From Candidatus Saccharimonadota bacterium (GTDB taxonomy: Bacteria; Patescibacteriota; Saccharimonadia; Saccharimonadales; Saccharimonadaceae), in NCBI GenBank assembly GCA_016866755.1, contig VGLK01000001.1:62001-126000 (forward strand): a stretch of 64,000 nt of DNA. The letters run 5' to 3'. Below the pieces are notes generated by a model. It was given only the letters and a program-made list of their open reading frames with translations, did no database searches and was not told where the DNA came from. A program made the position numbers and the translations under genes. Within the stretch, counting starts at the first letter, position 1. Each line of letters opens with the position of its first letter. Below are positions 829 through 53,862 of this stretch, one piece after another.

Positions 829-2478
829 CTAGAGACGATTGATACCGAGACAACCCGAAATTGCTGCAGCAATTTGACGGCTCCCTCCCGTGATGACTTC
901 GGCATGAAAGCCGGCGCCAATAAGGGAGGCTCGAAGCTGCTTGCGCTGCCGGAGCAGGATACTCTCAGCTTCGGTGATATCGCCCCGTAGCGGGACGACG
1001 ACCGTGTGCAGTTGATTGTAGTGCTGGCCGATCGTTTGTCGTGAGACGAGATCGGTTCGCTCTGCAAGGTCTCGTTCGCGTCGCTGGCGCTTCGGGTTGT
1101 GAACGCGAGCACTGCCGTAAAACGCATCGTTGAAGTTCGCCATCATTCCTTGGGCAAACAGCAACTGGTGTGTTTCGGCGTTGCCAGACACCGCTTGACC
1201 AACCATGGCTTGACGTGTCCATACGCCGGGCTTAGGAAGATCGTGCAGTAGCCGGTAGTGCTCTGCGCTAACTGTCTCCGGTAGCTGGACAATTCGCATC
1301 ACGGAGATCAGGTTGTTGTCGAGCTGCACGTAGTGGTGCTCGGTGTTAACCTTGATGATTCGCTCTGGCCACGTTTTGAGCGCGGCGTCTAATCCATCGG
1401 CACCTGTTTCCTTCCAGATGGCATCAAGTTCCTCGTTGGAGCGAGGAATGATACCTTCGGCCTGTCTGGTGTAGTAATCTTGAATGCCAGCGACATCCCA
1501 GCCAGTGCGACACACTGTTGAATGCTCTGCCAGGCTGAGACTGCGAACGTTGCGCATGTCGAGCGTGCCACTGGAAGAAAGTTCTTCTACCAGCGTGCGT
1601 CCCAGTTCGGCAATCGGCAGCTCATGTAGCTGCTTGTCGCTGAGTTGACCATTTATCGCCCGCCGCCAGGCGGAGGAGCGTTTGATGGTGAGGATGATGA
1701 GGTACCACGGTGAAGCGGCACCAGCATTGTCCAGCATGGGTTGCAATTGCTCGGCGTATCTAGCCAACCACTTGGCCCGTTCGTAGCTTTCCGCCGATCC
1801 AACGAAAAGATCGGGGTGAAGCACGATTGGGTCGATATTTTTCCGCAAGTAGCCGTTCAGTTCCGCCAGATTGTTTGGTCCGGTGACACGAATAAGCGAC
1901 AGGCCTACGGAAAGGTTGGTCGTCTGAGCGATGATCCGGTCAAGGATTTCACCCAGCGTGTTAACGACGTCGTGCTGGCTTGCTCCCTTGTTGAAGAACG
2001 AGCCGCCATCTGCCGTGATGAATAGGTGGTCGTACGGACGGTCTAGCTCGTGAAGAAGGCTGAACACCTCTTCTTGTCCGCGAATTTCCGCCCGAACCTG
2101 CGTAAGGCTAAGCGGAAAAGGGCTACGACGCGATTTCGGCTTGAACAGCTTTCGTCGCATCCAGCGCTGGAACTTCGGACTCGTGTCGTCCTCTTCGCGT
2201 ACCCACACCACACCCTTTAAAACCCCCATGATGGTGAGTTCCATAAAGATGTCCGCAAATTCGCGGTAAAGCCGACCAAACCACTTGCGCGGCCGGTACA
2301 GCCAGGGGAGTAGAAAGAGCACTACGGCTACGCCAAAAATCTCGCGTGTCCATACGCCCACCGCGATGCCGAGCAGCACGATGAGTAGAAGCACGGTGAG
2401 ATCGAGCCGAGTCCAGTTGGTGAGGGACTTGCCCTGCAACCGGTTATTCGGTACTTTTTGCCAACCAATATCGGACAT
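829..2478 (-). CDS. SCO6880-like type IV secretion membrane protein
   Basis: A 549-residue protein with two close N-terminal membrane segments (about residues 28-62) followed by a long soluble domain. This layout matches the SCO6880/PrgI-associated family of actinobacterial conjugation systems, where the protein sits at the inner membrane next to the VirB4-like ATPase. The ATG at 2478 overlaps the stop codon of the upstream membrane-protein gene (TAATG), which implies translational coupling. Base composition is clearly richer in G+C than in the chromosomal genes after 5800. The long cytoplasmic part carries no catalytic motif that I recognise. The family call rests on topology, size and neighbours and is a moderate-confidence inference. 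Confidence 0.6.
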   Translation of the reverse strand: MSDIGWQKVPNNRLQGKSLTNWTRLDLTVLLLIVLLGIAVGVWTREIFGVAVVLFLLPWLYRPRKWFGRLYREFADIFMELTIMGVLKGVVWVREEDDTSPKFQRWMRRKLFKPKSRRSPFPLSLTQVRAEIRGQEEVFSLLHELDRPYDHLFITADGGSFFNKGASQHDVVNTLGEILDRIIAQTTNLSVGLSLIRVTGPNNLAELNGYLRKNIDPIVLHPDLFVGSAESYERAKWLARYAEQLQPMLDNAGAASPWYLIILTIKRSSAWRRAINGQLSDKQLHELPIAELGRTLVEELSSSGTLDMRNVRSLSLAEHSTVCRTGWDVAGIQDYYTRQAEGIIPRSNEELDAIWKETGADGLDAALKTWPERIIKVNTEHHYVQLDNNLISVMRIVQLPETVSAEHYRLLHDLPKPGVWTRQAMVGQAVSGNAETHQLLFAQGMMANFNDAFYGSARVHNPKRQRRERDLAERTDLVSRQTIGQHYNQLHTVVVPLRGDITEAESILLRQRKQLRASLIGAGFHAEVITGGSRQIAAAISGCLGINRL

Positions 2479-3599
2479 TATTCTGTCACCTCACTCTGTT
2501 TGTTCTTGCGGGCTTGCTGAAGCTTGTCGGCCCCCTTGATGGCCGCCCCGATGTAGGGGTGGCCGGTGGCCGCTGTAGCTGCCGTAGCGGAATCGATGGC
2601 GATGCGTGACAACTTCTTACGGAAGTCGCTCCCGTCATCTTCCTTGCTGGCTTTGCTCAGCGCGAGGCTAGCCGCTTCCGCGGCAGCCATCTTGCTGAAC
2701 GTCGAGACAACGCCACCCCTCCCGTCGGTTTCGGCGCCAATAGAGGCGTTGACAGAAACAGGTGATGAGCTGAACGTCTCGATTTTGTTACCAATGGTGG
2801 CAGTAACGCGTCCGGTGATCTCCGAAGACCCCCAGAGCGCCAACAGCCACAGCACTAGCGGTACCGCGAAAGCCATAAGCGCCGATGCAGCCATAGCGAT
2901 TGCTCGCCACAAGCTATTGTCGGAGCCCGGAAGGGCAGAAGGCAGGACGTAGATGAAAATCATCACCGGTCCAACGAAAACCGCCATGATGATGGTCGCG
3001 TTGCACATATCGATGATCCTGCGCCCCCACTTCGACCCCGCGAATGCCGCAGCAAGCGGGTAAAAAATGAGAGCGACCACTACTAAAATGTGGATTGCCC
3101 ACGCCACAGCTGCCGAAAACAAGACGAAAAGTGCCGAAAACCCTGCACTGAGCAGCTTGCCCGCAAAATGATCCGGGAATCTGCCGTGCAGCATCTCTGC
3201 AAGTTCCGGCGTGCCGGCCTCTGGGTTACCGGTGGAAAGGGCGGCAATGACCTGTATCAGCACGTCTGACAGCATCGAAAGCGCCACATAGATCGGAATG
3301 ACGAGCACGCCGAAAAACATGAGGACGATGATGCCGTACGAGAGGCCGCCGATCCACTGACTGTGTGAGCGGGTAGGGCGGAACATGGCGTAGAGCCCTA
3401 GCACGATAACGACGGCCATAACTAGTCGAATTGCTAAACCGAGTGTGCCACCGACCGTAGTCAAAAACCAGTCGTCTTGAAACAGTGTTGCAGACGGCAT
3501 GGCGTTCTGACCAAGAACCAACACCAAAGCGCTGAGAAGCGTGTTGTACCACTCAGCGAGGTTATCGGCCCAGTCGGTGAAATTAAAAGGGTTGAACAC
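2478..3599 (-). CDS. TrbL/VirB6-like polytopic membrane protein
   Basis: A 373-residue hydrophobic protein with about seven or eight membrane segments between residues 20 and 270, then a polar, Ser/Ala/Lys-rich cytoplasmic tail. This is the usual shape of TrbL/VirB6 inner-membrane channel proteins. It lies between the pilin-like gene and the SCO6880-like gene in the same direction. A good ribosome site (rc AAGGAGGTGAATCC) lies just before the ATG at 3599. It probably forms part of the secretion channel. The N-terminal segment NPFNFTDWADNLAEWYN resembles the opening of several saccharibacterial TrbL-like proteins only in style; no residue-level proof is available here. Confidence 0.6.
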   Translation of the reverse strand: MFNPFNFTDWADNLAEWYNTLLSALVLVLGQNAMPSATLFQDDWFLTTVGGTLGLAIRLVMAVVIVLGLYAMFRPTRSHSQWIGGLSYGIIVLMFFGVLVIPIYVALSMLSDVLIQVIAALSTGNPEAGTPELAEMLHGRFPDHFAGKLLSAGFSALFVLFSAAVAWAIHILVVVALIFYPLAAAFAGSKWGRRIIDMCNATIIMAVFVGPVMIFIYVLPSALPGSDNSLWRAIAMAASALMAFAVPLVLWLLALWGSSEITGRVTATIGNKIETFSSSPVSVNASIGAETDGRGGVVSTFSKMAAAEAASLALSKASKEDDGSDFRKKLSRIAIDSATAATAATGHPYIGAAIKGADKLQQARKNKQSEVTE

Positions 3600-3630
3600 G
3601 AGGATTCACCTCCTTAGTTGTCGTAAGCAG

Positions 3631-3672
3631 ACGGTGGGCGAGCGGCCTATAGGAGCGCTGCTCGCCCACCGT
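3631..3672 (-). terminator. Strong hairpin just downstream of the pilin-like gene
   Basis: Perfect 13-bp arms ACGGTGGGCGAGC (3631-3643) and GCTCGCCCACCGT (3660-3672) with a 16-nt loop sit between the pilin-like gene (stop at 3703) and the next gene of the operon (start 3599). There is no U-tract. A hairpin here could protect the 3' end of the pilin message or partly attenuate readthrough, so that the pilin is made in excess. Confidence 0.7.
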
Positions 3673-3702
3673 ACTTGAGATGCGGCCACAGGTGGCTGGT
3701 TC

Positions 3703-4131
3703 TTACCACGTCCACATGCCCTCGGGGCAGATGAGCGCGCTTCCCCACTGAATGGCCACCCAGACGAGACCGAGTACGATCGGCAAGCCGACGACGATCG
3801 CGATGATCATCGCCAGCCGCGTCATCCACTCGGCACCCTTCTTGCGAGCGGCACTGAGCATCAGCAGGACTCCGAACAGCACGACCAAGGCCAGGGCGAC
3901 CGGCACCATCAGGGCACCGACGGCACCGATGGCATCCACCATCGGATCCCGGATCTGATCCAGGATGAGGTTGTTGGTGGGAATGCAGCCGGTGACATCC
4001 GTCTCGACTCCGGGGTTGTCCGGGTTCGGGGCGGGCGGTGCGGCCAAGGCGGCCGGCATGGTCATCATGCTGAGCACGAATGCCAACACGATGACGTAGA
4101 GGCCGCGGGTGCGGCGCTGAGCAGTGTTCAT
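3703..4131 (-). CDS. VirB2/TrbC-like pilin or small secreted-membrane protein
   Basis: From the ATG at 4131 the product is 142 residues: a basic N-terminus, a hydrophobic signal segment ending MPAALAAPP (cleavage likely after ALA), a short mature region with two cysteines far apart, and two membrane segments (about residues 65-90 and 100-125). This is the layout of VirB2/TrbC-type pilins. AAGGAG lies 6 nt before this ATG. A second in-frame ATG at 4203 also has AAGGAG 8 nt upstream and would add 24 residues, so the start is uncertain. It lies between the ParA-like gene and the TrbL-like gene, and a strong hairpin follows it, fitting a product made in larger amounts. Family membership is inferred from topology and context. 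Confidence 0.6.
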   Translation of the reverse strand: MNTAQRRTRGLYVIVLAFVLSMMTMPAALAAPPAPNPDNPGVETDVTGCIPTNNLILDQIRDPMVDAIGAVGALMVPVALALVVLFGVLLMLSAARKKGAEWMTRLAMIIAIVVGLPIVLGLVWVAIQWGSALICPEGMWTW

Positions 4132-4218
4132 GACGAACTCCTTCTTGGTAGTGGGCAGCGCGCTGGTGCGGTTGCCGCGGGGGGTGAAAGGGGTGTTACT
4201 CATGATGGAAACTCCTTT

Positions 4219-5484
4219 TTATGATCGAGCGGCAGGCGCAGGAACGTCGGTTGTCTCGGGTTCGAACGGGTTTTGATCCGCGGTGTCGTCTGTCGGTGTC
4301 TCGTCGAAGGACTTGACGATGGACAGGCGAGCGACGTTGCGGATTTCGCTCTCGCCCTTGAGCTCATCGCGCGGGTTCGCCACGTTGTAGCTCATGAGGG
4401 CGTCCGCCACCACGCGGAGCAACCAAGTCCACGCGTAGTGAACCTTGGCCGGCACCTTGGTGGAATCGACGCGCTGGCTGTCGTGCAGCCGCTGGTTGTA
4501 GGGAATCAGCACCACGTGCTCCGGCTCCAGCCCAAACTTCTCGGCCATCTCGTACTGAGTGCGGCGGTTGAAGTGTTTGGGAGTGACGGAGTTGAGCATC
4601 ACGATGGTCGTGTGGCCGTCCGTGCGCTGGCGCAGCTTGTACGGCCCGTACTTGAGTGCCTCGGTGATGCCGTGGATGTCGTCCTCGGCATTGAGATGGG
4701 CGGACAGAATCGTCACCCCCGAAGCCTTGACGGCTCCAATGGTGTTCTGCTCCTTGATGCCCGGCGCTGCATCGATGATGAGGGTGTCGGTCGGCTTCTT
4801 CAGCGTTCTTACTACCTTCTCCATCTGCTCGTCGTTGATCTCGACGCCCTCGGCGTTGGGCAGTACGTAGGCTTTCGACAGGGAGTCGATCGCCACGAGT
4901 TGCATCAGCTGATCCTTCGTCGGCTCGAACTCGTGGTTCAATATCAGCTCCATCATCTGCTTTGCGAGCAGTGCGTCGGAGCCGTCGAGTTCGATGCCGT
5001 GACGACGACCGAGCGACGTGTTGCTGGTGTCGTCGTCGAGGCCCAGGCTCACCAAGTCGATGAACCACGCGAAGTAGAAGTTGAGCCAGCTCGCCGCTGT
5101 GGACTTGCCGGTACCACCCTTGAGGGCGGCCGAGACGATGATGCCTCGCACCCACTTGCGAATGGAGTTGACGTACTTGATGTTGAGCACGGCCTCGCGC
5201 ATGTAGTTGCCCACAAAGCGCGGCGCTGGCCACTTGATCCACTTGCGGTTGTACAGCCGCAGTGCGGTGTAGAAGAACCAGTAGAGGCTGGCCCAACCGA
5301 ACGTCTTGGGGCAGGAAGCCATCACCCATGGGGGTGTGGGCTCCTTCTGCTTCTTCTGACGCTGGGCCTTGGGCGGCTTCGACTGCTTCGTCTTCGTCTT
5401 GTTGACCGTAGAATTGCTCTCGTCGCCAGTGGCGATGGAGCTGCTTCCGCGGACCATGTTGGTGTTTCCAGCTGGTGAAGACAT
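4219..5484 (-). CDS. ParA/MinD-family ATPase of the secretion cluster
   Basis: A 421-residue protein. After a Lys/Gln-rich N-terminus comes a deviant Walker A KGGTGKST near residue 135, followed by DDDTSNTS and a Walker B-like TLIIDAAPG near residue 240, which define a ParA/MinD-type P-loop ATPase. These proteins bind ATP as dimers and position DNA, plasmids or machines in the cell. Here it heads the secretion operon, so it may place the apparatus or act in DNA handling. The ATG at 5484 is preferred to an upstream TTG at 5538 because the extra 18 residues look non-coding. GC content is high, as in the rest of the operon. No ParB partner is seen in the window. Confidence 0.8.
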   Translation of the reverse strand: MSSPAGNTNMVRGSSSIATGDESNSTVNKTKTKQSKPPKAQRQKKQKEPTPPWVMASCPKTFGWASLYWFFYTALRLYNRKWIKWPAPRFVGNYMREAVLNIKYVNSIRKWVRGIIVSAALKGGTGKSTAASWLNFYFAWFIDLVSLGLDDDTSNTSLGRRHGIELDGSDALLAKQMMELILNHEFEPTKDQLMQLVAIDSLSKAYVLPNAEGVEINDEQMEKVVRTLKKPTDTLIIDAAPGIKEQNTIGAVKASGVTILSAHLNAEDDIHGITEALKYGPYKLRQRTDGHTTIVMLNSVTPKHFNRRTQYEMAEKFGLEPEHVVLIPYNQRLHDSQRVDSTKVPAKVHYAWTWLLRVVADALMSYNVANPRDELKGESEIRNVARLSIVKSFDETPTDDTADQNPFEPETTDVPAPAARS

Positions 5485-5817
5485 GTCAATATCTTTCTCT
5501 AGAATCGGATTGTAAAGGTGATGCCACAGTAAACTCAAGCCGCATACACAAGGCTTTGCAGCGAATTTACTGTCCGGATTTTTGTCCGGTCATAAGATTG
5601 CCTAAAGCACACAGCAAGGCGGTGGCAATCTTTAAATCGAACAAAAAATACTGCGACGTGAGTTGTGTTAATAGGTACTGATTTTTGTTTTATATTATAT
5701 CATTTTTTGATTATCAATGCAATAAATTTGCCTAATAATATATTATTTATGTCAAGTAAGATTTACATCACCATAAAACACGTCTTCTGCTATTAAAAAA
5801 CGGTATACTTATAACAG
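5485..5817. other. AT-rich spacer between GC-rich secretion operon and uvrC
   Basis: No convincing gene. Composition falls abruptly from GC-rich to very AT-rich after about 5540, marking the compositional edge of the secretion module. It should hold the divergent promoters of the ParA-like gene and uvrC; only the uvrC -10 box is clear. Confidence 0.6.
5804..5809 (+). promoter_or_regulatory. -10 box of uvrC, leaderless arrangement
   Basis: TATACT ends 8 nt before the uvrC ATG and no Shine-Dalgarno sequence is present. Transcription would start at or within a base or two of the start codon. The same spacing recurs at many genes in this window. Confidence 0.6.
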
Positions 5818-7344
5818 ATGAATGCTCAATTAGCCGACAAACTAAAGCAATTACCGCGCAGCCCGGGTGTCTATTTTCATAAAGATATTAGCGGTGAAAT
5901 TATTTATGTTGGCAAAGCGGCCGTGTTAAAAAATAGAGTGCGACAATATTTTCAGTCATCGCGTGATATGGACACGAAAACTAGAGCACTTGTTGCAGAA
6001 ATTGTTGATACCGATTGGGTTGAAACAGAGAGTGAAATTGATGCGCTGTTTTTGGAAAGCGAAATGGTTAAGCGGTATATGCCGCGCTACAATATTTTGC
6101 TGCGTGACGACAAAAGCTCGCTATTTGTACGTATAGACATGCAGTCTCAGTGGCCGCATGTAAGTTTTACGCGGAATCCGAGTGATGACGGTGCTGATTA
6201 TTACGGGCCATTTTACAATGGGTATGCCGTAAGAAAGGCGCTGCGTTATTTGCGTAAAACTTATCCGTATTACACGGCGCCTCCACGCCCTAATGCTCGA
6301 CCAAGTTTAGATTCGCATCTTGGCTTAGCTCCCAGTCCAAACACAACCAGCGAAGAGTATAAATACTCATTACGGCAACTGGTGCGTTACATTAAAGGCG
6401 ACAGAGTTGCTTTAGTGCGTGAGTTAGAGCGCGAAATGAAAAAAGCCGCAAGTGAAGAACGATTTGAAGAAGCTGCCACCTTGCGTAATCGCATGCGTAA
6501 CTTAGCTGAACTAAAGCGCCGAATAATGTTTGGCGATAAAGAATTTCTTGATCTATCAAAAGATGCCGCGCTTGGCGATCTTGTAGAGTTATTAAATTTA
6601 AACGCAACACCAAAGCGGATAGAAGGCTACGACATTAGTCATATGGGTGGTACTAATGTGGTGGCGAGTATGGTGGTGTTTTCTAATGGCGTGAGCGATC
6701 GTTCGCAGTACCGTAAGTTTAAAACAAAAATTGAACATAACAACGATTTTTATAATATGAACGAAACTATTCTCAGGCGTTTTAGTCCTAAAAACCTCCA
6801 GTCGTGGGGAGCGCCTAATCTTGTAGTAATTGATGGCGGTAAAGGGCAGCTAGATGCCGCATTAAAAGCGCGTAACGAACGCGAAAATGTCGTGCCGTTT
6901 ATTGGTCTTGCTAAGCGCGAAGAGCAAATTGTAGTGCATCATGCGTGGTCGAACGTAGAAATTAATCGCCAAAAAGTTGAAGCGCTTGGTGGCTATATAA
7001 CGGCTTCGGCTGAATTTTCGTTAATTAATCTGCCACATACTTCGCATATTGTAAAATTGCTTCAGCGTATACGCGATGAATCACACCGATTTGCCGTAAG
7101 TTATCATTCAGTATTAAAGCGAAAAAAACAAACCGAAAGCAGCCTAGAGCAAATACCAGGTGTTGGTCCGGCCACACGAAAAAAGCTTATTAAATATTTT
7201 GGAAGCATGCGGGGACTTGCACAGGCCTCTGAAAGTGATATTGCCGAGCTTATTGGTGAAAGTAAGGCAAAAATGATAATAAAATATGTTGATAAAGCGC
7301 CTCATCAAGCGAATAGGGCAAAAGAAACGAGTGGAGATGCATAA
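5818..7344 (+). CDS. uvrC: UvrC, excinuclease ABC nuclease subunit, cysteine-free
   Basis: A 508-residue UvrC, shorter than the usual 600 or so. The N-terminal GIY-YIG nuclease is visible (PGVYFHKD, then IIYVGKA), followed by the UvrB-binding UVR segment (EEAATLRNRM), the RNase H-like domain (IEGYDISH, VVIDGGKGQLDAA) and a C-terminal helix-hairpin-helix (IPGVGPATRKKLIKYFG). It makes the dual incisions of nucleotide excision repair with UvrB. The loop that carries four Fe-S ligand cysteines in most UvrC proteins reads RPSLDSHLGLAPSP here, and the whole protein contains no cysteine. The gene is first in a run with the downstream aminopeptidase, which overlaps its stop codon. Confidence 0.95.
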   Translation: MNAQLADKLKQLPRSPGVYFHKDISGEIIYVGKAAVLKNRVRQYFQSSRDMDTKTRALVAEIVDTDWVETESEIDALFLESEMVKRYMPRYNILLRDDKSSLFVRIDMQSQWPHVSFTRNPSDDGADYYGPFYNGYAVRKALRYLRKTYPYYTAPPRPNARPSLDSHLGLAPSPNTTSEEYKYSLRQLVRYIKGDRVALVRELEREMKKAASEERFEEAATLRNRMRNLAELKRRIMFGDKEFLDLSKDAALGDLVELLNLNATPKRIEGYDISHMGGTNVVASMVVFSNGVSDRSQYRKFKTKIEHNNDFYNMNETILRRFSPKNLQSWGAPNLVVIDGGKGQLDAALKARNERENVVPFIGLAKREEQIVVHHAWSNVEINRQKVEALGGYITASAEFSLINLPHTSHIVKLLQRIRDESHRFAVSYHSVLKRKKQTESSLEQIPGVGPATRKKLIKYFGSMRGLAQASESDIAELIGESKAKMIIKYVDKAPHQANRAKETSGDA

Positions 7345-22628: not shown

Positions 22629-25600
22629 TTATTCGGTCAACAACTTACACAGGGCTAGATACCTATTAAATAGATTGATTGTCATCTCTCGGTCGTTTAA
22701 ATGAGCGTAGGTTTTAATAAGATTACCAAAACCGCCATGTCCTCCATTAAGGTATAGATAATCTAAAGTCTCTTGCTTATAATTAGGGTTTTCAAGTGTG
22801 TACGCAAGACCCAGATGAGCATATTTTCCATCTGAAGAATAATAATCCGAATGAGGATAGCTAATGCTCTCCAGGTACTCTATAAATAAGTTAATATTTC
22901 CAAACAACTCGTATGTCTTATCGATAAGTACTTCCCACGACTTAGCATCCTTGAGAGATATTTCATTCTTGTAGTTTCTGAGCCTCTTGTATGCACCTCG
23001 TATTTTCTGTTTAGTCTTTGCGTCTTTTAGCTCATCCCGAAATCTCTGCTCATTACTAGAGGAGTATTTCCTTGTGGGTATTGAGTCACGTTTTTGCCCT
23101 AGCTTAATATTAGGTTTGATATTGAACTTTTTACACAGTTCTAAAAAATCTTGTACTTCTTCTTTATAATAAGTGTCAGAGAGGTAATATGTCAGCCCCT
23201 GGCCCTGCATAGATGCAATCTGCTCATTGGCTTTATTGAGTACCTCGACTTTCTCTTCGTCAGAGTATAGCTCCGATTTAGAGATTTCGAGATATACAAC
23301 AAATTTTTGCTCGTAATATTCAGCGCAGGGCTTTCCCTCATAATCGTAATCCATTTGGAATTCATCAAAACCCTCCTCGACAGACTCAACAGACAAACCC
23401 GCACGCACCCTAGATAGTAGAATTGGGGTATATAAAGAATTCGAGACACTGTACCTGCCTTCTTTCTTTACATACCTGTCCTTATATCGAATTGCTATGT
23501 CTCTATCAAATTTTGCTACGGTCTCAATAAAGCGGTATGGGCCGCGAGAGGTTCCACTCCCATCTGATATTTCATACGCCCTAAGTACAAGATTCCATAC
23601 TTCATCGAGAGCAGAGTTCAACTCACCATCCCTCAGCCACTGCTTCTCGAGTAGTACTCCCAAAGCACTGACAAGGTCATAGTGAACAATTGAGTCTTTT
23701 CTCCAGCCATGCCGCAGAGTGCCGTCTACGATGGCCTTAATGAATAGTTCGGATGCTCTTTGTGGGTTGACTCCCTTATACATCCGACTAAGGTCTAGGT
23801 ATCGGTCTACCTTGGATTGAAAATCGTCTGTCCAAGCATCTAGGTCAGTCTCGAACGATGCGATTTCAGATTCGCTTACAATGCTGCTAAATAAGGACGG
23901 AAAATGTGTATTAAGATTGAGGTAAAAACTGTATTTATTTATATGAAGCTCTTCAACAAGTCTTTTTGTAAGTAGTTTCTTTGTTGAATTATCTACGGTG
24001 CTGTGACCATAAATATAAGCCCAAAGCACAGTAATTGGAAATAGCAGAGCTTTGGAGTTGTAGCGAGTATCGTCTTTCAACTCACAATATTTTGCATATT
24101 GACGATATATGTACTCAAAACTAGCGTCACCCTTAATCATAGAAATATATGCCACATAGAGAGTTGCATATACTACACGTTCACTATATAGGTCGAGTCC
24201 ATGTATGCTTTTTGCCTGTGCAATCTCTTGCTCTAGAGAATAGTCGCCAATAACGTATGCGATTAACGCAAATTCGGTTTCATAACCATGTGTTCGCCAG
24301 TCAATATCTCGCTGATTTACTATTTTCTCTTTTCTTTTGTCCAGGTATTCATATTCATCTTTGGTAATATTTAGTGAAAAGTATTTCTTGAAAAACAGAA
24401 TATGATAGCTATTCTCGTTTAGCTCGAAGTCATAAGTATCGACAAATCTTCTCACACTTTCGTGAATTTCTGTGTATTCAATAAATAGCTTTAGGTTAGG
24501 TACTCTTGTTAATATTTTAAGAAGCTCCAAAAGCACTGGCTGTGGTAACTTATCAATAACGCTAGCCAGTTGAGATGGTTGACTATCAACAAGAACAGAT
24601 AGATAGGATTTTATAGCCTCGGCAACTCCACGCTTTGACTCAAAGCCGTCCTCGCTATCGTTCATCATAGGTAAGATTTTTTCATTGAGTATCTTTTCGG
24701 CACTATCTCCAAGGATGTTCATGAGGTAAAAAATCCAAGATTTATATGTATCGTGAGACGAGCCAACAATATGCTGTCGTTGTTGCTTGTCTAGCAACTC
24801 AAAAAATTTATTCTTTTTATAGAGTGTTTGAATTTCTCGTATATTGTTTATGATTTCATTTGCAATATCTTTTCGACCAGCTTGCCAGAAGTCCACAACA
24901 AGATTCATTAAACGTGAACGCCCCTCCTGCCATCCGCCAACCAACACTTGCTCGGCTCGATAATGAGTCAGACTATCGGTATCTTGCTTCCACTCCTGGA
25001 ATTTATCTTTTAGTAATTTGGTATCGACAAAAACTTTACTTCTAATGTCCAGATTGTCATCTTCAAATAGTACGTTAAAGACGGCGTCCTGCTGGTCTAC
25101 GAGAGTCTTTATAAAGTCAGATGAATTGAGATAGTAAGGGCTATCTACACCCCAGCCAGAATGGTTCCCTAGATAAACGTCTAGAAGGCTCAAGTCAAGA
25201 CAACCAATCAGATTATTCTCTTCGATATACTTCTTGCGTAAGCCCTTTATAAAGAATGTCTGGAATAGCTCAAGATTAGATAAAATCGATAGTTTTCTTA
25301 GAATACTCGGATTTGCCGTATATTGTTTTTGGAGCAAGGTAATAAAGAAGTACTCCTGGTAGCGTCGATGCTTATAGACATAGTATGCTTCTTGAGGATT
25401 TGTAGAGGAGGTGTCAAAAAATAGACTGGCTATATAGTTAATAATAGAATTGATTGCATTGTAATCAATCTTTGGGTAAGCCGTACCGACCACTTCCTGT
25501 AAATCGTGTATCGGAAGTAAAAATTGAAACTTTTCGTGAAACTTATAGGATATAGCTTCGTTTAATAGAAGAATAGCCTCGTCTTTCGGATTTGGCAGAT

Positions 25601-25949
25601 TTAACCCTGGCAGGTCCTTGTAGTGATTCGGGTCATACAAAACACGTTTCACCTTTAACTCATATAAGTCCAGTACCGTACTATCGCTATTAAGCTGCTC
25701 AATTGAATCCCAAAGTAGCAGTAATCCTAGTACGTCAGTTATAGAGGATACTAGCTTTGGATTTGATAATTTTAGTGAGTCATAGGCCAATTGTTTATCG
25801 GCGTTACCTTTCGCCTTAAAATAGCTATCAACATCCTTTATAACTAATTGTCCGACTTTGAATTCAATGCAATTCTTGAAATAGTTTTTGAGCTGAATTT
25901 TATTAAAATTTCCGCTTCTACAAGTTACGATAATTTTATGATGTTTTTC
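22629..25949 (-). CDS. C-terminal part of NACHT/STAND protein in the -1 frame (sensor region)
   Basis: This frame is open from the slippery site at 25949 to a stop at 22629, 1106 residues. It begins with residues that directly continue the NTPase (KHHKIIVTCRSGNF, a sensor-1-like strand) and carries on through the region before 25790 that has no ATG, so it is not an independent gene. The rest is long, charged and mostly helical, like the repeat-type sensor of STAND proteins; no named domain is recognised. Read together with the upstream frame by a -1 shift it would give one 1412-residue nuclease-NTPase-sensor protein. Whether the shift is programmed, a homopolymer error or a mutation is not settled by the sequence. 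Confidence 0.7.
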   Translation of the reverse strand, partial: EKHHKIIVTCRSGNFNKIQLKNYFKNCIEFKVGQLVIKDVDSYFKAKGNADKQLAYDSLKLSNPKLVSSITDVLGLLLLWDSIEQLNSDSTVLDLYELKVKRVLYDPNHYKDLPGLNLPNPKDEAILLLNEAISYKFHEKFQFLLPIHDLQEVVGTAYPKIDYNAINSIINYIASLFFDTSSTNPQEAYYVYKHRRYQEYFFITLLQKQYTANPSILRKLSILSNLELFQTFFIKGLRKKYIEENNLIGCLDLSLLDVYLGNHSGWGVDSPYYLNSSDFIKTLVDQQDAVFNVLFEDDNLDIRSKVFVDTKLLKDKFQEWKQDTDSLTHYRAEQVLVGGWQEGRSRLMNLVVDFWQAGRKDIANEIINNIREIQTLYKKNKFFELLDKQQRQHIVGSSHDTYKSWIFYLMNILGDSAEKILNEKILPMMNDSEDGFESKRGVAEAIKSYLSVLVDSQPSQLASVIDKLPQPVLLELLKILTRVPNLKLFIEYTEIHESVRRFVDTYDFELNENSYHILFFKKYFSLNITKDEYEYLDKRKEKIVNQRDIDWRTHGYETEFALIAYVIGDYSLEQEIAQAKSIHGLDLYSERVVYATLYVAYISMIKGDASFEYIYRQYAKYCELKDDTRYNSKALLFPITVLWAYIYGHSTVDNSTKKLLTKRLVEELHINKYSFYLNLNTHFPSLFSSIVSESEIASFETDLDAWTDDFQSKVDRYLDLSRMYKGVNPQRASELFIKAIVDGTLRHGWRKDSIVHYDLVSALGVLLEKQWLRDGELNSALDEVWNLVLRAYEISDGSGTSRGPYRFIETVAKFDRDIAIRYKDRYVKKEGRYSVSNSLYTPILLSRVRAGLSVESVEEGFDEFQMDYDYEGKPCAEYYEQKFVVYLEISKSELYSDEEKVEVLNKANEQIASMQGQGLTYYLSDTYYKEEVQDFLELCKKFNIKPNIKLGQKRDSIPTRKYSSSNEQRFRDELKDAKTKQKIRGAYKRLRNYKNEISLKDAKSWEVLIDKTYELFGNINLFIEYLESISYPHSDYYSSDGKYAHLGLAYTLENPNYKQETLDYLYLNGGHGGFGNLIKTYAHLNDREMTINLFNRYLALCKLLTE

Positions 25950-26866
25950 TTTTTTGACAATTCGAGCATCTGAAGCAATATAAGGTCAGCCCTGTCTTCG
26001 CTAATCTCATCCAATCCATCAAGCAAATAGATAATTTTTAGTTCGGCACCTTGGATAGCGTAAGCACTTTGTCGAGTCCGTATTATATTTTCCAGACTGT
26101 CTGTTGCACAAAGTTTAAGATTTATAACTTGAGGCACTGCACCAGTTGAGATTATCTTATTTACCATTTTCGTCTGACTCGCTTCGCCCATTCCCGAATA
26201 CGAAGAGAAGAGCCGATGAACTAAGGTACTTTTACCAGAAGCTGGGTCTCCTGATATGAGTACTAGTTTTTCCGAAAGTTTTAAAATGGTCTCTTCCAGA
26301 TTTTGAACACGCTTATTTTTCGAGTCCAAAAAATGCAACTTTAAAAATTGTTTTGATTTCACCAGTGTTAGTTTAGTATGGTCTGCACTATCTTCTATAA
26401 ACTTAAACTCAGAGCCGTATCCAAAGTAGAAAAATGATAAATCTAGATTCTGAGGCTTTGTTAAGGCTACTTCAAAATTACTGCGAGTATACCATTGTAT
26501 TTTGACGCCATATTTTGCAGCTTCCTTAGCAATTTCCTTGCCGCTCTCTGACCTGTTTGGTTGAGCGTTAAGATTAATGAATATACATATCTCATCAAGC
26601 GAGCTTCCGTATTTTTGCAAAGCCGTAATGACAGATTTCTTTATTTGCGAGTAGCCAACGCTATCATCAAAATACTTTGACTGAAATCCATACGTCTTTT
26701 TGCCAACTTTGACAGGTTCTGTTTCAAGGCCAGCTTGGTTGAAATCACCTGACACACCTTCTGATAATTTGTGCTTACGGCAGAATAAATGTAAGCAAAG
26801 CTCTTCAAAAGAGTCTTGTTTGCTTGCTCCAGTTACTCCAAATTTATTCCAGTCAATCGCAGGCAT
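25925..26866 (-). CDS. N-terminal part of NACHT/STAND protein: restriction-type nuclease plus NACHT NTPase start (zero frame)
   Basis: A 313-residue frame. The N-terminus has a PD-(D/E)xK-type nuclease pattern: Asp41 in SGDFN, then Gln62-Ser-Lys64 in GFQSKYF, close to the Mrr-like D...QxK arrangement. It is followed by a P-loop NTPase with Walker A SGDPASGKST (about 205-214) and the NACHT-type Walker B YLLDGLDE (about 280-287). The frame stops 9 codons after a slippery A AAA AAG heptamer. Such nuclease-NACHT proteins are antiphage sensors in known STAND defence systems. A TATACT box ends 6 nt before the ATG (leaderless layout). Neighbouring accessory genes support a defence role, which remains inference. 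Confidence 0.8.
   Translation of the reverse strand: MPAIDWNKFGVTGASKQDSFEELCLHLFCRKHKLSEGVSGDFNQAGLETEPVKVGKKTYGFQSKYFDDSVGYSQIKKSVITALQKYGSSLDEICIFINLNAQPNRSESGKEIAKEAAKYGVKIQWYTRSNFEVALTKPQNLDLSFFYFGYGSEFKFIEDSADHTKLTLVKSKQFLKLHFLDSKNKRVQNLEETILKLSEKLVLISGDPASGKSTLVHRLFSSYSGMGEASQTKMVNKIISTGAVPQVINLKLCATDSLENIIRTRQSAYAIQGAELKIIYLLDGLDEISEDRADLILLQMLELSKKKNIIKLS
25949..25955 (-). promoter_or_regulatory. Putative -1 ribosomal frameshift heptamer A AAA AAG
   Basis: On the minus strand the zero frame reads TCA AAA AAG AAA AAC, so the last A of TCA plus AAA AAG is a canonical X XXY YYZ heptamer identical to the dnaX slippery site and in the correct phase. A -1 slip enters the long downstream frame. 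No strong downstream stem-loop or upstream ribosome site was recognised. Confidence 0.6.
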
Positions 26867-26986: not shown

Positions 26987-27126
26987 TGTTCTAGGTTTTA
27001 CCACATTTAAGCAATGCGATTTTTTTCGCACGATAGAGTTCTGAAAAGGACATCGTGTGAAACATTTTGAGCTTTATCGCTTGAATGTGGATAAAAGGCC
27101 TAGAACACCTGCACGGTGTCCTTTTT
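26987..27126 (+). ncRNA. Candidate rod-shaped structured RNA (6S-like shape or leader)
   Basis: Arms 26988-27012 and 27079-27106 pair over about 25 bp with only small bulges. Inside, 27025-27034 pairs with 27052-27061 (10 bp, one G-U), capped by GTTC/GGAC. Between the two stems is an unpaired or weakly paired bubble of about 12 and 17 nt. The predicted transcription start coincides with the stem base, and a short ACACC/GGTGT hairpin followed by TTTTT (27122-27126) ends it. The overall shape, a long rod with a central bubble, recalls 6S RNA, but no conserved sequence is recognised. It could also be a leader attenuating the operon that starts at 27156. Confidence 0.55.
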
Positions 27127-27155
27127 ATTTTCTGGACACAGAAAGGAATAACACA

Positions 27156-27704
27156 GTGGAAGTAACCTCGATAATCGCCCTCGTTATCATACTAGGTCTT
27201 GGCTTTTGGGTGTCCGAGAGAAGTAAAGACAAGGCCAATGCTGAAGCAATCCAGAAGGCACGGGACGGATTTATGTCGCTCGTGAATGAGCTTGAGGTTG
27301 ATGGTATTTCTGACGAGTTAGTGCAGTGGCTTGAAGCAAGAGTGCGAATGCAGACAGGCAAAAGCCTTTCAGTATTAACGGACGAATTGAAAGATATGCT
27401 AAACGAGGAGGACGGTAAGAAGCAGGTTATCGTGCAACTTATGTTATTGCAGCAGCACTACCTAGAGGAACAGCAAAATACCGAGGAGCGTATGCAGTGG
27501 CATAAGTATGTAGAAACTTTCCGACAAATGAACAAAGCCCAGCAAAAACACGAGATTGAGCGACTTAAAAAAGTTGCTAGAGATGGCTCTTCGGACGACA
27601 GTGAAAAACTGAACTCGCTAGAGCTGATTTACCTCGGTAGTGATAGCAAGACAATCGATGTAATGGTGGGAGGCGTAAAGTTATTTACGCTGAAAGAAAA
27701 GTAA
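27156..27704 (+). CDS. Membrane-anchored coiled-coil protein of the recombinase element, unknown
   Basis: A 182-residue protein starting at GTG 27156 with AAAGGAA 8 nt upstream. One N-terminal membrane segment (residues 4-18) is followed by a mostly helical, charged, coiled-coil-prone body and a small beta-rich end (SKTIDVMVGGVKLFTLKEK). I do not recognise a family. Its last bases overlap the ATG of the next gene (TAATG), so the two are coupled. It opens the cargo operon of the element with the serine recombinase. Confidence 0.65.
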   Translation: MEVTSIIALVIILGLGFWVSERSKDKANAEAIQKARDGFMSLVNELEVDGISDELVQWLEARVRMQTGKSLSVLTDELKDMLNEEDGKKQVIVQLMLLQQHYLEEQQNTEERMQWHKYVETFRQMNKAQQKHEIERLKKVARDGSSDDSEKLNSLELIYLGSDSKTIDVMVGGVKLFTLKEK

Positions 27705-28339
27705 TGCAGATAAAGAAAACAAAGAAGCCATCGAATATTCTTTTTGATGATGATTTTGCCTCAGGGTTTGAAGATAGCAGATTTGAAAAGTTCAAGCCAA
27801 TTGTAAAGATATTGGTTACAGCCATCGTTATCGTAGGCATTGCTTGTACCTACTTCCTCTTTTTTCATCGTAGTGGTGACACCAAAAATCTCAACGACAC
27901 TTATACGTCTAACCCATCGCAGACAAGTGCTGATGATAAAGCCGCTCAAGATGGCCCAGAAGCCATCGAAACCACACCAGAGCAATCACCGCAAAACTCT
28001 AGCTCAGCATCGCCTAGCAGCAATACTCATCACTCAAGTGGCAATAGCTCCACCCCAACTACAAAGCCGTATGACCCAAGCAAATGCGAGCCGCTCAACA
28101 ATGAAGCTACAAGACTACGCCAAGTCGCAGACCAAAAGAAGACGACATACGATAATGCTTTTGCGGCACGCAAGAACTATGGATACTTCTATGATAAATA
28201 TGGCAACAGCACTGATGCACAGCAGACATACGACAATCAAGAAGCCCAGCTTAATTTGCTACAAACAGATTGGCAGGACGCACTCAATAAGGGAAACGTG
28301 GCATACGCCAAGTACCAAGAGTGTCGAGCAAGCTTGTAA
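27704..28339 (+). CDS. Single-pass membrane protein with Ser/Pro linker and exported helical domain
   Basis: A 211-residue protein: a cytoplasmic head of about 38 residues, one membrane segment (VKILVTAIVIVGIACTYFLFF), a low-complexity Ser/Thr/Pro/Gln linker (about 65-120) and an extracellular helical domain with one cysteine at each end (YDPSKCEPL and YQECRASL), which could be joined by a disulfide. The start overlaps the stop of the preceding gene. It looks like a surface-exposed protein of the mobile element. No family is recognised. Confidence 0.65.
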   Translation: MQIKKTKKPSNILFDDDFASGFEDSRFEKFKPIVKILVTAIVIVGIACTYFLFFHRSGDTKNLNDTYTSNPSQTSADDKAAQDGPEAIETTPEQSPQNSSSASPSSNTHHSSGNSSTPTTKPYDPSKCEPLNNEATRLRQVADQKKTTYDNAFAARKNYGYFYDKYGNSTDAQQTYDNQEAQLNLLQTDWQDALNKGNVAYAKYQECRASL

Positions 28340-28381
28340 AACGCACAGCCCTTTAGCTCGCACTAACGATAAAATGGTAGT

Positions 28382-28876
28382 ATGAGCAACGAGATGGACA
28401 GTACAGGAGTAGATACCGCTACAAAGCAAGCGGTAAATGGTCGTGATGAACGTGGCAGATTTGCCACAGGCAACACTCCTACTACAGGCTTTCACACTAA
28501 CCCAGAGCGTCGTAATAATGGTAAATGGGATAAAGACGAGTCGATTAGCTACTGGTACAATAAATTACTCCGTATGCCGAACGACGAGTTCGATAGCTTT
28601 AAGCCAGCAAATAGTTCTCAGCGTATTGCCTACATTCGCATTGTAACGGCTTGTGGCACTGGGGAACTGGCACTAAGAGTCACTAAAGAGATTACAGACC
28701 GCACCGAGGGACGACCACGGCAGGATATTGATATGAGCCTGGAGCAAGATGAGGCTGTACCGATTATTAAGGGATTTGTCATACCGACAATGCCAGAGCA
28801 TTTTTTTGATAAGGATATTATCGAGCAGCTTGGCGAAGAAAAAGCGGCCGAAGTCCTCGGTAGGCATAATTACTAG
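28382..28876 (+). CDS. DUF5681-like phage/mobile-element protein
   Basis: A 164-residue protein. The N-terminal RDERGRFATGNTPTTGFHTNPERRNNG resembles the DUF5681-type opening (R-G-R-F-x-x-G-N), seen in proteins encoded next to phage packaging and mobile-element genes. The remainder is acidic and helical. TAAAAT ends 6 nt before the ATG with no ribosome site. The assignment is tentative; a small terminase-like DNA-binding role is possible. Confidence 0.55.
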   Translation: MSNEMDSTGVDTATKQAVNGRDERGRFATGNTPTTGFHTNPERRNNGKWDKDESISYWYNKLLRMPNDEFDSFKPANSSQRIAYIRIVTACGTGELALRVTKEITDRTEGRPRQDIDMSLEQDEAVPIIKGFVIPTMPEHFFDKDIIEQLGEEKAAEVLGRHNY

Positions 28877-28908
28877 GCCAGTTTGCTATCGTCTATAATT
28901 GGACATAG

Positions 28909-29532
28909 ATGGCAAAACGCTCACGAGATATTTACAGCCCCATCACCGCTCGTGATTGGTTCTTATATCACTTGTTTAATGACAAGGACTTTGTAGAGAT
29001 ACGAAAACAATGGCAATTAGAAATTAATGATGTTGACCAAGAGCCAGGACTAGAAGATAAACAGCGTGCAGAGATAGAGGAAATAACAGCACGATACGTC
29101 GAGTCGCTACGTCAAAAGTTCGGTATCAATGAAGTGACTGCACGCAAAGGCCTCACATACAAGAAGCATAACAGGACGCTCAATGCCGATAGAGTGCCCG
29201 TAGCAGAAATACGAGGCAACCGCGTCATTATCAGTATTGGTGCTAATACAAAGCTCGAAGACATTGAAGACTTATGGACACCTTGGATTAGCCTACTGCA
29301 AAGCAAGCTCCCTAACTATAGCTCGCAGCGTGAAACGCCAACAGACGAGCCACTGCTGGCCTACACGGTATACAAGGAACTACGAAACGGCCGTAAAATG
29401 ACGGAGATACACGAGGCATATTCACAGGGTACGTTACATAGCGAGATGCCAGAGGGCAATAAGTGGCCAGATGTAAGTGATTTTAGAAAATACTATAAAG
29501 GTATTGTAAAGGGTTATGTAGACCGCCCTTAG
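28909..29532 (+). CDS. Hypothetical protein of the recombinase element
   Basis: A 207-residue, charged, soluble protein without a recognised family. The N-terminal part (SPITARDWFLYHLFNDKDFVEIRK) and the central helical region look compact; the C-terminal part ends WPDVSDFRKYYKGIVKGYVDRP. TATAAT (28894-28899) ends 9 nt before the ATG. It lies between the DUF5681-like gene and the small frame that precedes the serine recombinase, and is probably cargo or a helper of the element. Confidence 0.65.
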   Translation: MAKRSRDIYSPITARDWFLYHLFNDKDFVEIRKQWQLEINDVDQEPGLEDKQRAEIEEITARYVESLRQKFGINEVTARKGLTYKKHNRTLNADRVPVAEIRGNRVIISIGANTKLEDIEDLWTPWISLLQSKLPNYSSQRETPTDEPLLAYTVYKELRNGRKMTEIHEAYSQGTLHSEMPEGNKWPDVSDFRKYYKGIVKGYVDRP

Positions 29533-29573
29533 CTACTCTCTTCATACCCTGGTGTTTTTCCTATGCTTGAAAT

Positions 29574-29714
29574 ATGCCAAGCAGTCAAAGCGAAGAGATG
29601 AAAGAGGCCATATACGAATATGCATCTTTTCTCTATGACCTCTATATGGACAGCATTGATGATGGTATAATTGACGGTGGACAAAACAATGCACAACAAA
29701 ACCTCAGTAACTGA
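29574..29714 (+). CDS. Small acidic protein before the recombinase, unknown
   Basis: A 46-residue frame (starts MPSSQSEEMKEAIYEYASF, ends QQNLSN) with an amphipathic helical first half. It lies in the gap between the 207-residue gene and the recombinase hairpin, too short for routine gene callers. No clear ribosome site. Position just before a serine recombinase suggests a control or directionality peptide, but that is speculation. Confidence 0.4.
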   Translation: MPSSQSEEMKEAIYEYASFLYDLYMDSIDDGIIDGGQNNAQQNLSN

Positions 29715-29730
29715 TTTTATTGATATTAGT

Positions 29731-29775
29731 GGGAGCTTCTTTAGGCCGTGCATTGGCCTTGTCCGAGAAGCTCCC
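29731..29775 (+). promoter_or_regulatory. Long hairpin upstream of the first serine recombinase
   Basis: GGGAGCTTCT (29731-29740) pairs exactly with AGAAGCTCCC (29766-29775); an inner AGGCC/GGCCT stem with a 7-nt loop stacks inside. It ends 24 nt before the recombinase ATG and could be a terminator, translational control element or part of an attachment site. Confidence 0.6.
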
Positions 29776-29798
29776 TCTAATGTTTGTAAGGAGTTGTT

Positions 29799-31370
29799 AT
29801 GCCTACTAAAGCATTGGCAATCGCAAACTTTCGCGTATCGAGTGATGAACAGCTAGAAAACGGCAGTATTTCTCGTCAAGAAAAATCGGTTTTAAAAGCC
29901 TCAAAAATACTTGAAGCTGATATTGTTCGTACTTGGTCGGGTAGTGTATCCAGCAAGAAGTGGAACAACATAGAGCGTAAAGACCTAGAAGAAATGATTG
30001 CAGAGTGCAAGAAAAATAAGCATATAAAATATGCTATTTTCGATGAGGTTGACCGCTTTATGCGTTCGATGCTTGAAATTGGTTACTTTATCGTGGAGTT
30101 CAAAAAGCTAGGTGTCGAAGTAAAGTTTGCTTCACAACCAGACTTAAAAACAGACACTGCGGTGGACACACTAATGCTGATGCTGGAGGCATTCAAGGCT
30201 GAGGGTAGCAATGAAGAACGACAACGAAAATCAATCAAGGGACTTACCGAAGCCGTCGCTAATGGCAAATGGCCGTTTCAACCAAAGGCTGGATATAGAA
30301 AAGGGTATGTAAACGGCGTGCCAGAGATTGACCCAGTGCGGGGCTTCCCTTTACAAGAAGCTATGTTATCAATGGTTGAATATCGAGCAACTCCAACCGA
30401 GGCACTTGCACAACTAAACAAATCCGACTTCGTAAAAGGCCGTGCAAAATACAAAATGGACAAGTTTAGGGCTATCTGCACGCATTCTTTCTATGCAGGC
30501 GTCGTGGAGATGAATAAGCAAGTAAAGTATCGTAATGAGAATGGCTTACATAAGCCCCTTATAACGATGGAGCAGCACTTGAAGCTCGTGGAGATATTTG
30601 CAAAAAAGAAGAAGACGCAAAGTGGTCCGCGAAAAAACGGTAATCCAGAGTACCCTCTGTCTAATATCGTGCATTGTCAAAAGTGCGAACAAGAGAAGTA
30701 CGGACGGTATGTAGGATTTCCAGTAAACAATGGCAAAAATAAGGAGCGTATTTATCATAAATATCGTTGCAGGAGTTGTGGCGAATATTTTACTCGTGAC
30801 GATTTACATCGGAATATAAGTGGCTATATTGGTGAGTACCAAATAACAGAATACGGACGCACTAAGCTCCTAAAAGCACTAAATGCAGTATGGAAAGCAC
30901 GCAGTAAAACGGCCGAAGTAGAAAAGTTGCGTATCGCTCGTGATATAGCCTCATTACGACAGCTAATAGATAATCGAGTAGATGCAGCCATACAGCCCGA
31001 AAATCAATCTATCAAAAGCGATATTATGCGAAAGATTGAAGACGATAAGCTAAGACTCAAGGAACTAGAGCAGCAGTACGAAAACTACGATAAAGACGAC
31101 CTTGCGGAGAAAGAGCGTTTTATTGCGTTTGCACTAGAGTATGCCGAAAATATGGAGCAACACTTTATCAAACTACCAAAGCCTCGTCTCTTGCAGTGTA
31201 AACAAATGCTATTTCCTGCTGGATTTTGGATAGACGCTGATAGAAAAGTTTACACCCCAGAATTAAGCATTCTCACCAGATTAGCGAGCAACAAAAAAGA
31301 CCTTCCAGAAACCGAAAAGTCTTTTATGGTGCGGAGCTACAGAATCTACTCAAACTTTTTGAAAGTATGA
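29799..31370 (+). CDS. Large serine recombinase/integrase
   Basis: A 523-residue large serine recombinase. The N-terminal resolvase domain begins ALAIANFRVSSDEQ with the nucleophilic Ser near residue 14 and continues with the conserved YAIFDEVDRFMRSMLE. A recombinase domain follows, then a zinc ribbon (CQKCEQEKYG and CRSCGEYF) and a coiled-coil region. It would catalyse integration and excision of the element. AAGGAG lies 7 nt before the ATG; the stop is TGA. It differs in sequence from the second recombinase at 59510, so the two accessory blocks are likely independent elements. Confidence 0.9.
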   Translation: MPTKALAIANFRVSSDEQLENGSISRQEKSVLKASKILEADIVRTWSGSVSSKKWNNIERKDLEEMIAECKKNKHIKYAIFDEVDRFMRSMLEIGYFIVEFKKLGVEVKFASQPDLKTDTAVDTLMLMLEAFKAEGSNEERQRKSIKGLTEAVANGKWPFQPKAGYRKGYVNGVPEIDPVRGFPLQEAMLSMVEYRATPTEALAQLNKSDFVKGRAKYKMDKFRAICTHSFYAGVVEMNKQVKYRNENGLHKPLITMEQHLKLVEIFAKKKKTQSGPRKNGNPEYPLSNIVHCQKCEQEKYGRYVGFPVNNGKNKERIYHKYRCRSCGEYFTRDDLHRNISGYIGEYQITEYGRTKLLKALNAVWKARSKTAEVEKLRIARDIASLRQLIDNRVDAAIQPENQSIKSDIMRKIEDDKLRLKELEQQYENYDKDDLAEKERFIAFALEYAENMEQHFIKLPKPRLLQCKQMLFPAGFWIDADRKVYTPELSILTRLASNKKDLPETEKSFMVRSYRIYSNFLKV

Positions 31371-32948: not shown

Positions 32949-34232
32949 ATGAAACATACTAAAACAAAAAAAGCTCGTGCGAATCGATTATTTGAATGGC
33001 CGATCTTATTGGGCTTAGCGGTGTTATTTATAACTATTGCAATTGTTGCCGTTGTGCAGTCGGTAAATGCTTCGAATGTGGTTGCCACTGGCGAAATACG
33101 CGGTCTTGCTAGTAAATGTCTTGATAATAACGCTAACCGCTTACAAAATAGCAATAAAATTCAGCTATACGGGTGTAATTCTACAGCTGCGCAGCGTTGG
33201 GCATTGCATGATGATGGCTCGCTGCGTTTAGGTGGCAACTTTTGCCTTGATGTACGTGGAGCATCAAAAGTTTCGGGTGCAATAGTACAGCTTTATCGCT
33301 GTAACGGCACGCCGGCTCAAAAGTGGCAGGCAAGGACAGATGGCAGTGTAGTAAACCCAAATTCTGGTATGTGCTTAGATGTACGGAGCGGACAGAGTGC
33401 AAATGGAACGCAAATTCAGATTTATCGCTGTAACGGTACAGCAGCTCAAAAGTGGACACTACCAAAAGCAGCAACACCTCCGCCGGTAGCAAATACCTGT
33501 TTATCGAATGGTAAAGGCGGAGCATTTAGCGACCGAACTTATCAATCGCACAGTGGTGCCGGTAAGTCTGGTCAGTACCATGTGTATGCCGGCGGAATGC
33601 CAACAAATAAGCCGGTTGGTATAATTGTACAGCTTCATGGCGATGCCGCCTGGGAATTTAGTAGGCCAACAAGTGGAAAGCTTGCCTCTATGGCAGCCCA
33701 TGCTGATACATATGATATGATTCTGGTGTCTGTAAAAGCACCCGACACCAGTGGTGTGGTTACTTGGTGGGAAGAGGGTGCAAGTAATGCTGCCTGGTTG
33801 CAAACCTTACTTAATGAACAGGTATATGCTAGGTACAATATTGATAAATCGAAAGTGTGGTTTGCTGGGTATTCCGGTGGAGCGCAATTTATCACCCAGT
33901 ACTACACGCCAAAATATAACTCAACATTTTGCGGCGGTGGAGCAGTTATTGCCGGTGGTGGTGGAGCGAACTCGCGCCTGCCTGGTACAATTTCTGCCTC
34001 AAGCAATTTTAAAAAGAATTTTAAAATGCACTGGTACACCGGACAAGAAGATACCGCCGCCAATGCAGAAGATAAGTTTTGTGGAATTTGTGCAGCACGA
34101 ACCGGGGCTGAATACTATAAAAATCAAGGATTTACCGCTACTTCTACTCAGTTTCCAGCGGGTGTAAATCATTATCAGCTTGATGAGCCGGGCGTGTTAA
34201 GGGCGCAGCTTTCTAGGGCGTACGGATTTTAA
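32949..34232 (+). CDS. Secreted ricin-B-lectin / esterase fusion protein
   Basis: A 427-residue exported protein. One N-terminal hydrophobic segment (about 20-38) ends near VNAS and may be a signal peptide. A ricin-type beta-trefoil (CBM13) follows with three Q-x-W repeats (AAQRWAL, PAQKWQA, AAQKWTL) at about 78, 125 and 168, then a Pro-rich linker and an alpha/beta-hydrolase domain with LHGDAAW, the nucleophile elbow GYSGGAQ and the catalytic His in GVNHYQLD. This is the layout of secreted esterases that bind polysaccharide. For an epibiont it may act on host cell-wall glycans or their acyl groups. A leader AAAATATAAGGATTATAAAAA contains AAGGA 13 nt before the ATG. Confidence 0.85.
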   Translation: MKHTKTKKARANRLFEWPILLGLAVLFITIAIVAVVQSVNASNVVATGEIRGLASKCLDNNANRLQNSNKIQLYGCNSTAAQRWALHDDGSLRLGGNFCLDVRGASKVSGAIVQLYRCNGTPAQKWQARTDGSVVNPNSGMCLDVRSGQSANGTQIQIYRCNGTAAQKWTLPKAATPPPVANTCLSNGKGGAFSDRTYQSHSGAGKSGQYHVYAGGMPTNKPVGIIVQLHGDAAWEFSRPTSGKLASMAAHADTYDMILVSVKAPDTSGVVTWWEEGASNAAWLQTLLNEQVYARYNIDKSKVWFAGYSGGAQFITQYYTPKYNSTFCGGGAVIAGGGGANSRLPGTISASSNFKKNFKMHWYTGQEDTAANAEDKFCGICAARTGAEYYKNQGFTATSTQFPAGVNHYQLDEPGVLRAQLSRAYGF

Positions 34233-49642: not shown

Positions 49643-49945
49643 ATGTACAGGTTGTTGAGTAAAATTAGTCTTATAGTCCGATTTATTATTTGCTATTTCA
49701 CTATAGAGGCTGTTCCTATATTTCAGAGTGAGCTCTGGACAGTAATACTTGCTCAAGCCGTACCAGTCTACAGCATCTTACTGGCTATTTCATATGCCAT
49801 AGTGGGTTCAGTCTTCAAATACGAGAGAGGTTCATTTCCTAAACTTGGAGTCTTGCTCTACTTCGTCGTATATATCCCACTTGTTCTGCTACTATGGGGC
49901 GTTCTCACACTGCTGACTGCGCTAGGCGTACTTCCTATAGCCTAA
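49643..49945 (+). CDS. Small membrane protein, unknown
   Basis: A 100-residue protein from ATG 49643 (an ATG at 49604 would add 13 residues) with three hydrophobic segments (about 6-22, 30-55 and 68-95). No family recognised. It converges on the zinc-ribbon gene and overlaps its end by 4 nt. No ribosome site. The consistent membrane topology supports a gene; small membrane proteins often accompany defence loci. Confidence 0.45.
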   Translation: MYRLLSKISLIVRFIICYFTIEAVPIFQSELWTVILAQAVPVYSILLAISYAIVGSVFKYERGSFPKLGVLLYFVVYIPLVLLLWGVLTLLTALGVLPIA

Positions 49946-51670: not shown

Positions 51671-51672
51671 AA

Positions 51673-53685: not shown

Positions 53686-53862
53686 GTGTCTAATTATAAC
53701 GGAAGTGATTGACAGTGGCAATACTTTGTCAATGGATTTTATTGACACTAACCTTGGACCACTGTAATATGGATAGTAAGTAGAGTAACTACGGCGACAA
53801 AACAAACATTTTTTACCAACCAGTACCCGGGCGATTCGGGTTGTCACTTACATGGAGGGGTT
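53686..53862. promoter_or_regulatory. Divergent promoter-operator region of repressor and terminase genes
   Basis: Plus-strand promoter: TTGACA (53742-53747), 17-nt spacer, TAATAT (53765-53770). Minus-strand promoter: TTGCCA and TATAAT (53693-53698 on plus coordinates). Three copies of ATTGACA occur: at about 53708, 53741 and, inverted as TGTCAAT, at about 53727. Two of them form an inverted pair. They overlap the promoters and are good candidates for repressor half-sites. Confidence 0.7.

Follow-up and report, generated by a model that had tools for sequence, protein, structure and literature searches.

An Avs4-related nuclease-NACHT gene of a Candidatus Saccharimonadota bacterium, probably interrupted by the loss of one base in an A-rich tract

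The interrupted gene

The window, i.e., the whole stretch of 64,000 nucleotides analysed here, carries on its minus strand (26866-22629) one long gene interrupted by a change of reading frame. The 5' part (25949..26866) encodes an Avs4-like nuclease (residues ~1-170) and the first half of a NACHT domain; it comprises 306 codons to the break and 313 to the stop of the 0 frame, a TAA at 25925..25927 (minus strand). The 3' part (22629..25949), in the -1 frame, contributes 1106 codons for the rest of NACHT, a linker, and a long helical-repeat region, the putative sensor. The minus-strand codons at the break read GAA TTG TCA AAA AAG AAA AAC ATC ATA AAA TTA TCG TAA and include, within an A6-G-A5 tract, the in-phase heptamer A AAA AAG (25955-25949). 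The heptamer and the 313-residue frame had been reported in a preliminary description of the locus, and both proved correct when the codons and coordinates were re-read. The uninterrupted 1412-residue protein that it proposed for a -1 shift was likewise reproduced (306 + 1106 residues, no internal stops). The earliest ATG, GTG, or TTG of the downstream frame is the TTG at 25790, about 135 nt beyond the first stop; as had been noted, it lies 3' of the codons for KIIVTCRSGNF, and the -1 frame stays open across the gap between the upstream stop and this TTG. No second lesion is present across the 1106 downstream codons.

The host genome comprises 0.85 Mb in 7 contigs. The gene has a G+C content of 38%, compared with 44.5% for the window, and is adjoined by a large serine recombinase/integrase (29799..31370, plus strand; Pfam Resolvase 7.5e-16, PHROG integrase 1.6e-40), which together suggest that it lies in a horizontally acquired island. 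The flanks of the island were searched for direct repeats that could serve as attachment sites, and none was found. Its divergently transcribed genes (27057-31370, plus strand) encode four small proteins of no recognised family, followed by the recombinase.

The encoded protein

Residues 5-224 match Avs4 (NCBIfam NF041815, 1e-36; PADLOC Avs4 profile, 6.3e-35). The gene was rejected as Avs4 proper, as the NF041815 score, which covers residues 5-224 alone, is 125.7 bits against a family cut-off of 1500 bits. Four nuclease residues (N43, E48, Q62, and K64) are invariant in the eight aligned sequences, as are the NACHT positions G206, G211, K212, DGLDE 283-287, and R317. The P-loop (GDPASGKST) and the Walker B motif (LLDGLDE) belong to the 5' part, and the sensor-1 strand (KIIVTCR) to the 3' part. 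With the Pfam NACHT profile (PF05729, cut-off 26.7 bits), the rejoined protein scores 21.5 bits, while two homologs, L012 and L014, reach 28.8 and 33.3 bits. In the PDB, the best match to a structural model of the 700 N-terminal residues of the homolog L009 (mean pLDDT 78) is the Avs4-phage portal complex (8dgf, E 2e-15), followed by NLRC4 and NLRP3. The C-terminal model (mean pLDDT 80) is all-helical save for the NACHT remainder, and its best PDB match is Avs3 (8dgc, E 5e-7). Judged from these profiles and motifs, the product is a protein with a nuclease, a real NACHT domain, and helical repeats, a divergent relative of Avs4. By analogy, it probably acts as an antiphage sensor, in agreement with the earlier assignment to the nuclease-NACHT proteins.

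The protein shares with Avs4 (AVAST type 4; 8dgf, NF041815) the homologous N-terminal nuclease and P-loop (residues 5-224) and the domain order nuclease-STAND NTPase-helical repeat; Avs4 is also the best fold match. It differs in its Walker B, which is DGLDE as in NACHT proteins and not the DSAE motif of Avs4, in a C-terminal part lacking sequence match to Avs4, and in length (~1410 vs. ~1590 residues). Bacterial NACHT proteins (bNACHT, NLR-related; PF05729) have the P-loop, LLDGLDE, and IIVTCR motifs in common with it; homologs L012 and L014 exceed the Pfam cut-off for the domain and the model resembles NLRC4 and NLRP3, whereas the effector is an Avs4-like nuclease and the window protein itself stays below that cut-off. 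The family, combining an Avs4-like nuclease, a true NACHT, and a distinct helical sensor, links the Avs and NACHT defence proteins. In a different Patescibacterium (L006 in genome G111, 2418-7301), an Avs4-like gene is unbroken and full-length, with an open frame of 1628 codons; DNA methyltransferase-like genes adjoin it.

The intact members would function as ligand-triggered nucleases, as their relatives suggest. The C-terminal repeats would bind a phage protein, NACHT would oligomerise, and the N-terminal nuclease, of the PD-(D/E)XK type and Avs4-like, would then cut DNA.

Homologs across the frame break

Profile-guided (alignment-based) scans retrieved seven homologs from other phyla: L009 (Oligoflexia), L010 (Acidobacteria), L011 (partial, covering residues 1-524), L012 (Lacibacter), L013 (Flavobacterium), L014 (a Methanomassiliicoccales archaeon), and L100 (an IMG/VR contig). 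All but L011 are complete and collinear along the entire 1412 residues, with identities of 26-36%. All seven possess a single open frame and align through the junction ungapped (LELSKK/EKHHKIIVTCRSGN in the window versus, e.g., QELSRA/NTTQKIVMTCRLGN in a homolog). As no homolog is gapped at the break and the complete ones are collinear throughout, the two halves are, by this alignment, parts of one ancestral gene, single-framed at this point. The earlier proposal that one nuclease-NACHT gene is split by a frame break is thereby confirmed.

The heptamer A AAA AAG occurs at the aligned junction in none of the seven homologs. L013 and L100 contain A AAA AAT in phase within the same lysine/asparagine-rich NACHT linker; both genes are in frame and leave the motif unused. 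This variant is not among the motifs chosen as shift-prone in a study of E. coli (PMC4066793). Probably it reflects mere composition in L013 and L100, yet marks an A-rich indel hot spot for the family. The longest A-run at the aligned linker varies from 2 to 8 across homologs.

The family extends over Patescibacteria, Bacteroidota, Acidobacteriota, Oligoflexia, and one archaeon. No close relative carrying the gene was detected among 101 genomes of relatives or among genomes of the phylum (380), order (295), family (394), and class (393), nor by single-sequence scans of the viral_contigs and genome_contigs collections. The downstream part is absent from 393 other genomes of the family. The phage collection yielded no match to the gene; in the plasmid collection, the Avs4 nuclease part alone was matched and the downstream part had no match. 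Genes of AbiE or Gabija adjoin two of the homologs.

Origin of the frame break

The most probable event is the loss of a single base at the A-tract, through mutation or sequencing error. The locus is very likely a horizontally acquired gene for a single-protein antiphage sensor, whose frame was broken by a one-base loss in an A-run of the lysine-rich NACHT linker. The loss might be a recent inactivating mutation in the sequenced strain or a sequence error, and the A AAA AAG heptamer would be its residue; one-base slips would be expected in a lysine/asparagine-rich linker whose A-runs reach 8 in homologs. With no second lesion over 1106 codons, the loss is either recent or not real. Some observations fit base loss less readily. 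The downstream codons are entirely undamaged, no close relative is at hand to date the loss, and the heptamer, in phase, is exactly A AAA AAG, the best-known bacterial slippery site.

The last of these amounts to a modest coincidence, as the break of an A-run often creates a slippery heptamer unaided. When one base was deleted from runs of at least six in the genes of the window, an in-phase slippery heptamer was left in 9 of 68 cases (A AAA AAG in 2), and the same operation on L012-L014 left one in 19 of 69 (A AAA AAG in 4). The heptamer by itself is unremarkable, as four other genes of the window, all intact, also contain A AAA AAG in phase.

Across 163 kb of the genome (the window and five other stretches), no other gene is clearly broken, and the frame is kept at 51 A/T runs of at least 7 inside ORFs. 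The idea of an assembly full of indels was rejected on these numbers, which also weigh against the error branch of the base-loss explanation; general sequencing error is unlikely and a single error possible. In a survey of frame transitions in 1106 prokaryotic genomes, recoding accounted for 146 clusters and pseudogenes for 4010; unclustered frameshifts backed by homology were regarded as mostly sequencing errors (PMC3711429). Gene callers would split such a gene, thereby hiding an antiphage sensor whose family is intact.

Programmed frameshifting and other explanations

According to the preliminary description, programmed -1 frameshifting at A AAA AAG might allow a single gene to yield both a short nuclease-NTPase and the full-length sensor. 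The canonical heptamer is in phase, the new frame is open for 1106 codons, and, in the presence of stimulators, this motif ranks with the most efficient ones in E. coli (PMC4066793). At the window site, however, neither type of stimulator is found: the 30 nt upstream of the heptamer contain no Shine-Dalgarno-like element, and no downstream RNA structure rises above chance (fold z = 0.32; of random positions in the gene, 80% fold equally well or better). In E. coli, heptamers lacking stimulators exceed the 0.055% background by a factor (motif:no-motif ratio) of no more than ~10 (PMC4066793). Strong slippage in this bacterium has been attributed to its sole tRNA-Lys, which pairs weakly with AAG, and Thermus thermophilus, which has two tRNA-Lys, uses another mechanism (PMC5009743). 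The host genome encodes both tRNA-Lys(UUU) and tRNA-Lys(CUU), the latter (CTT anticodon, G000:C4:7348-7421) reading AAG, so the reason for the strong slippage of the heptamer in E. coli is removed.

The resemblance to dnaX is limited to the identical, in-phase heptamer. The window site differs in lacking stimulators and conservation and in its host having two lysine tRNAs. Moreover, dnaX is truncated after a domain, whereas the short product of the window ends inside NACHT, in the loop ahead of the sensor-1 strand (residues 304-307 in L009), so its NTPase, unlike that of the gamma subunit from dnaX, would be incomplete. A dnaX-like arrangement in the host organism itself was rejected, as its own dnaX is unshifted, a single open frame of 495 codons without in-phase A AAA AAG. 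Literature searches combining Avs4 and frameshift returned nothing. The comparison with homologs, put forward in the preliminary description as a check on the slippery site, goes against its proposal in substance, with all seven in frame and none containing A AAA AAG. Given also the absence of stimulators, the presence of tRNA-Lys(CUU), a short product cut within NACHT, and a tract of just A6, the production of two proteins by programmed slippage appears very unlikely. An A AAA AAG heptamer at a frame break is therefore weak evidence of recoding unless accompanied by conservation, stimulators, and the right set of tRNAs.

Phase variation, in which changes of A-tract length within the population would switch the defence gene on and off, was also suggested earlier. 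The tract sits at the break, such switching could plausibly act on a costly defence gene, and the gene bears no further lesion, but the A6-G-A5 tract is no longer than many others (in the 163 kb, A/T runs of 6, 7, and 8 number 211, 63, and 3, respectively) and is not kept in homologs, so this switch is hard to credit. We give an equally low probability to a lineage-specific form of recoding, whereby, once the base had been lost, spontaneous slippage at the A AAA AAG heptamer would keep a little full-length protein and so limit self-toxicity in a Patescibacterium with a reduced genome.

A pair of genes, one for a nuclease on its own and one for a separate downstream protein, would accord with two ORFs in different frames, but this arrangement is refuted by the homologs, every one a single protein through the junction, and is extremely improbable in that the downstream frame offers no start codon before TTG 25790 while remaining open across the gap and NACHT would be halved.

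Other genes of the window

A CBASS-like pair is encoded elsewhere in the window (51116-52938, minus strand), comprising an SMODS/AGS_C oligonucleotide cyclase (51673-52938) and a SLATT_4 effector with two TM segments (51116-51721). An S24 peptidase-like protein is located upstream of the pair (53014-53847), and a protein of 390 aa without a recognised family follows it (49942-51114). On the plus strand, the gene at 32949-34232 encodes ricin-type beta-trefoil lectin repeats, followed by an apparent esterase/depolymerase domain.
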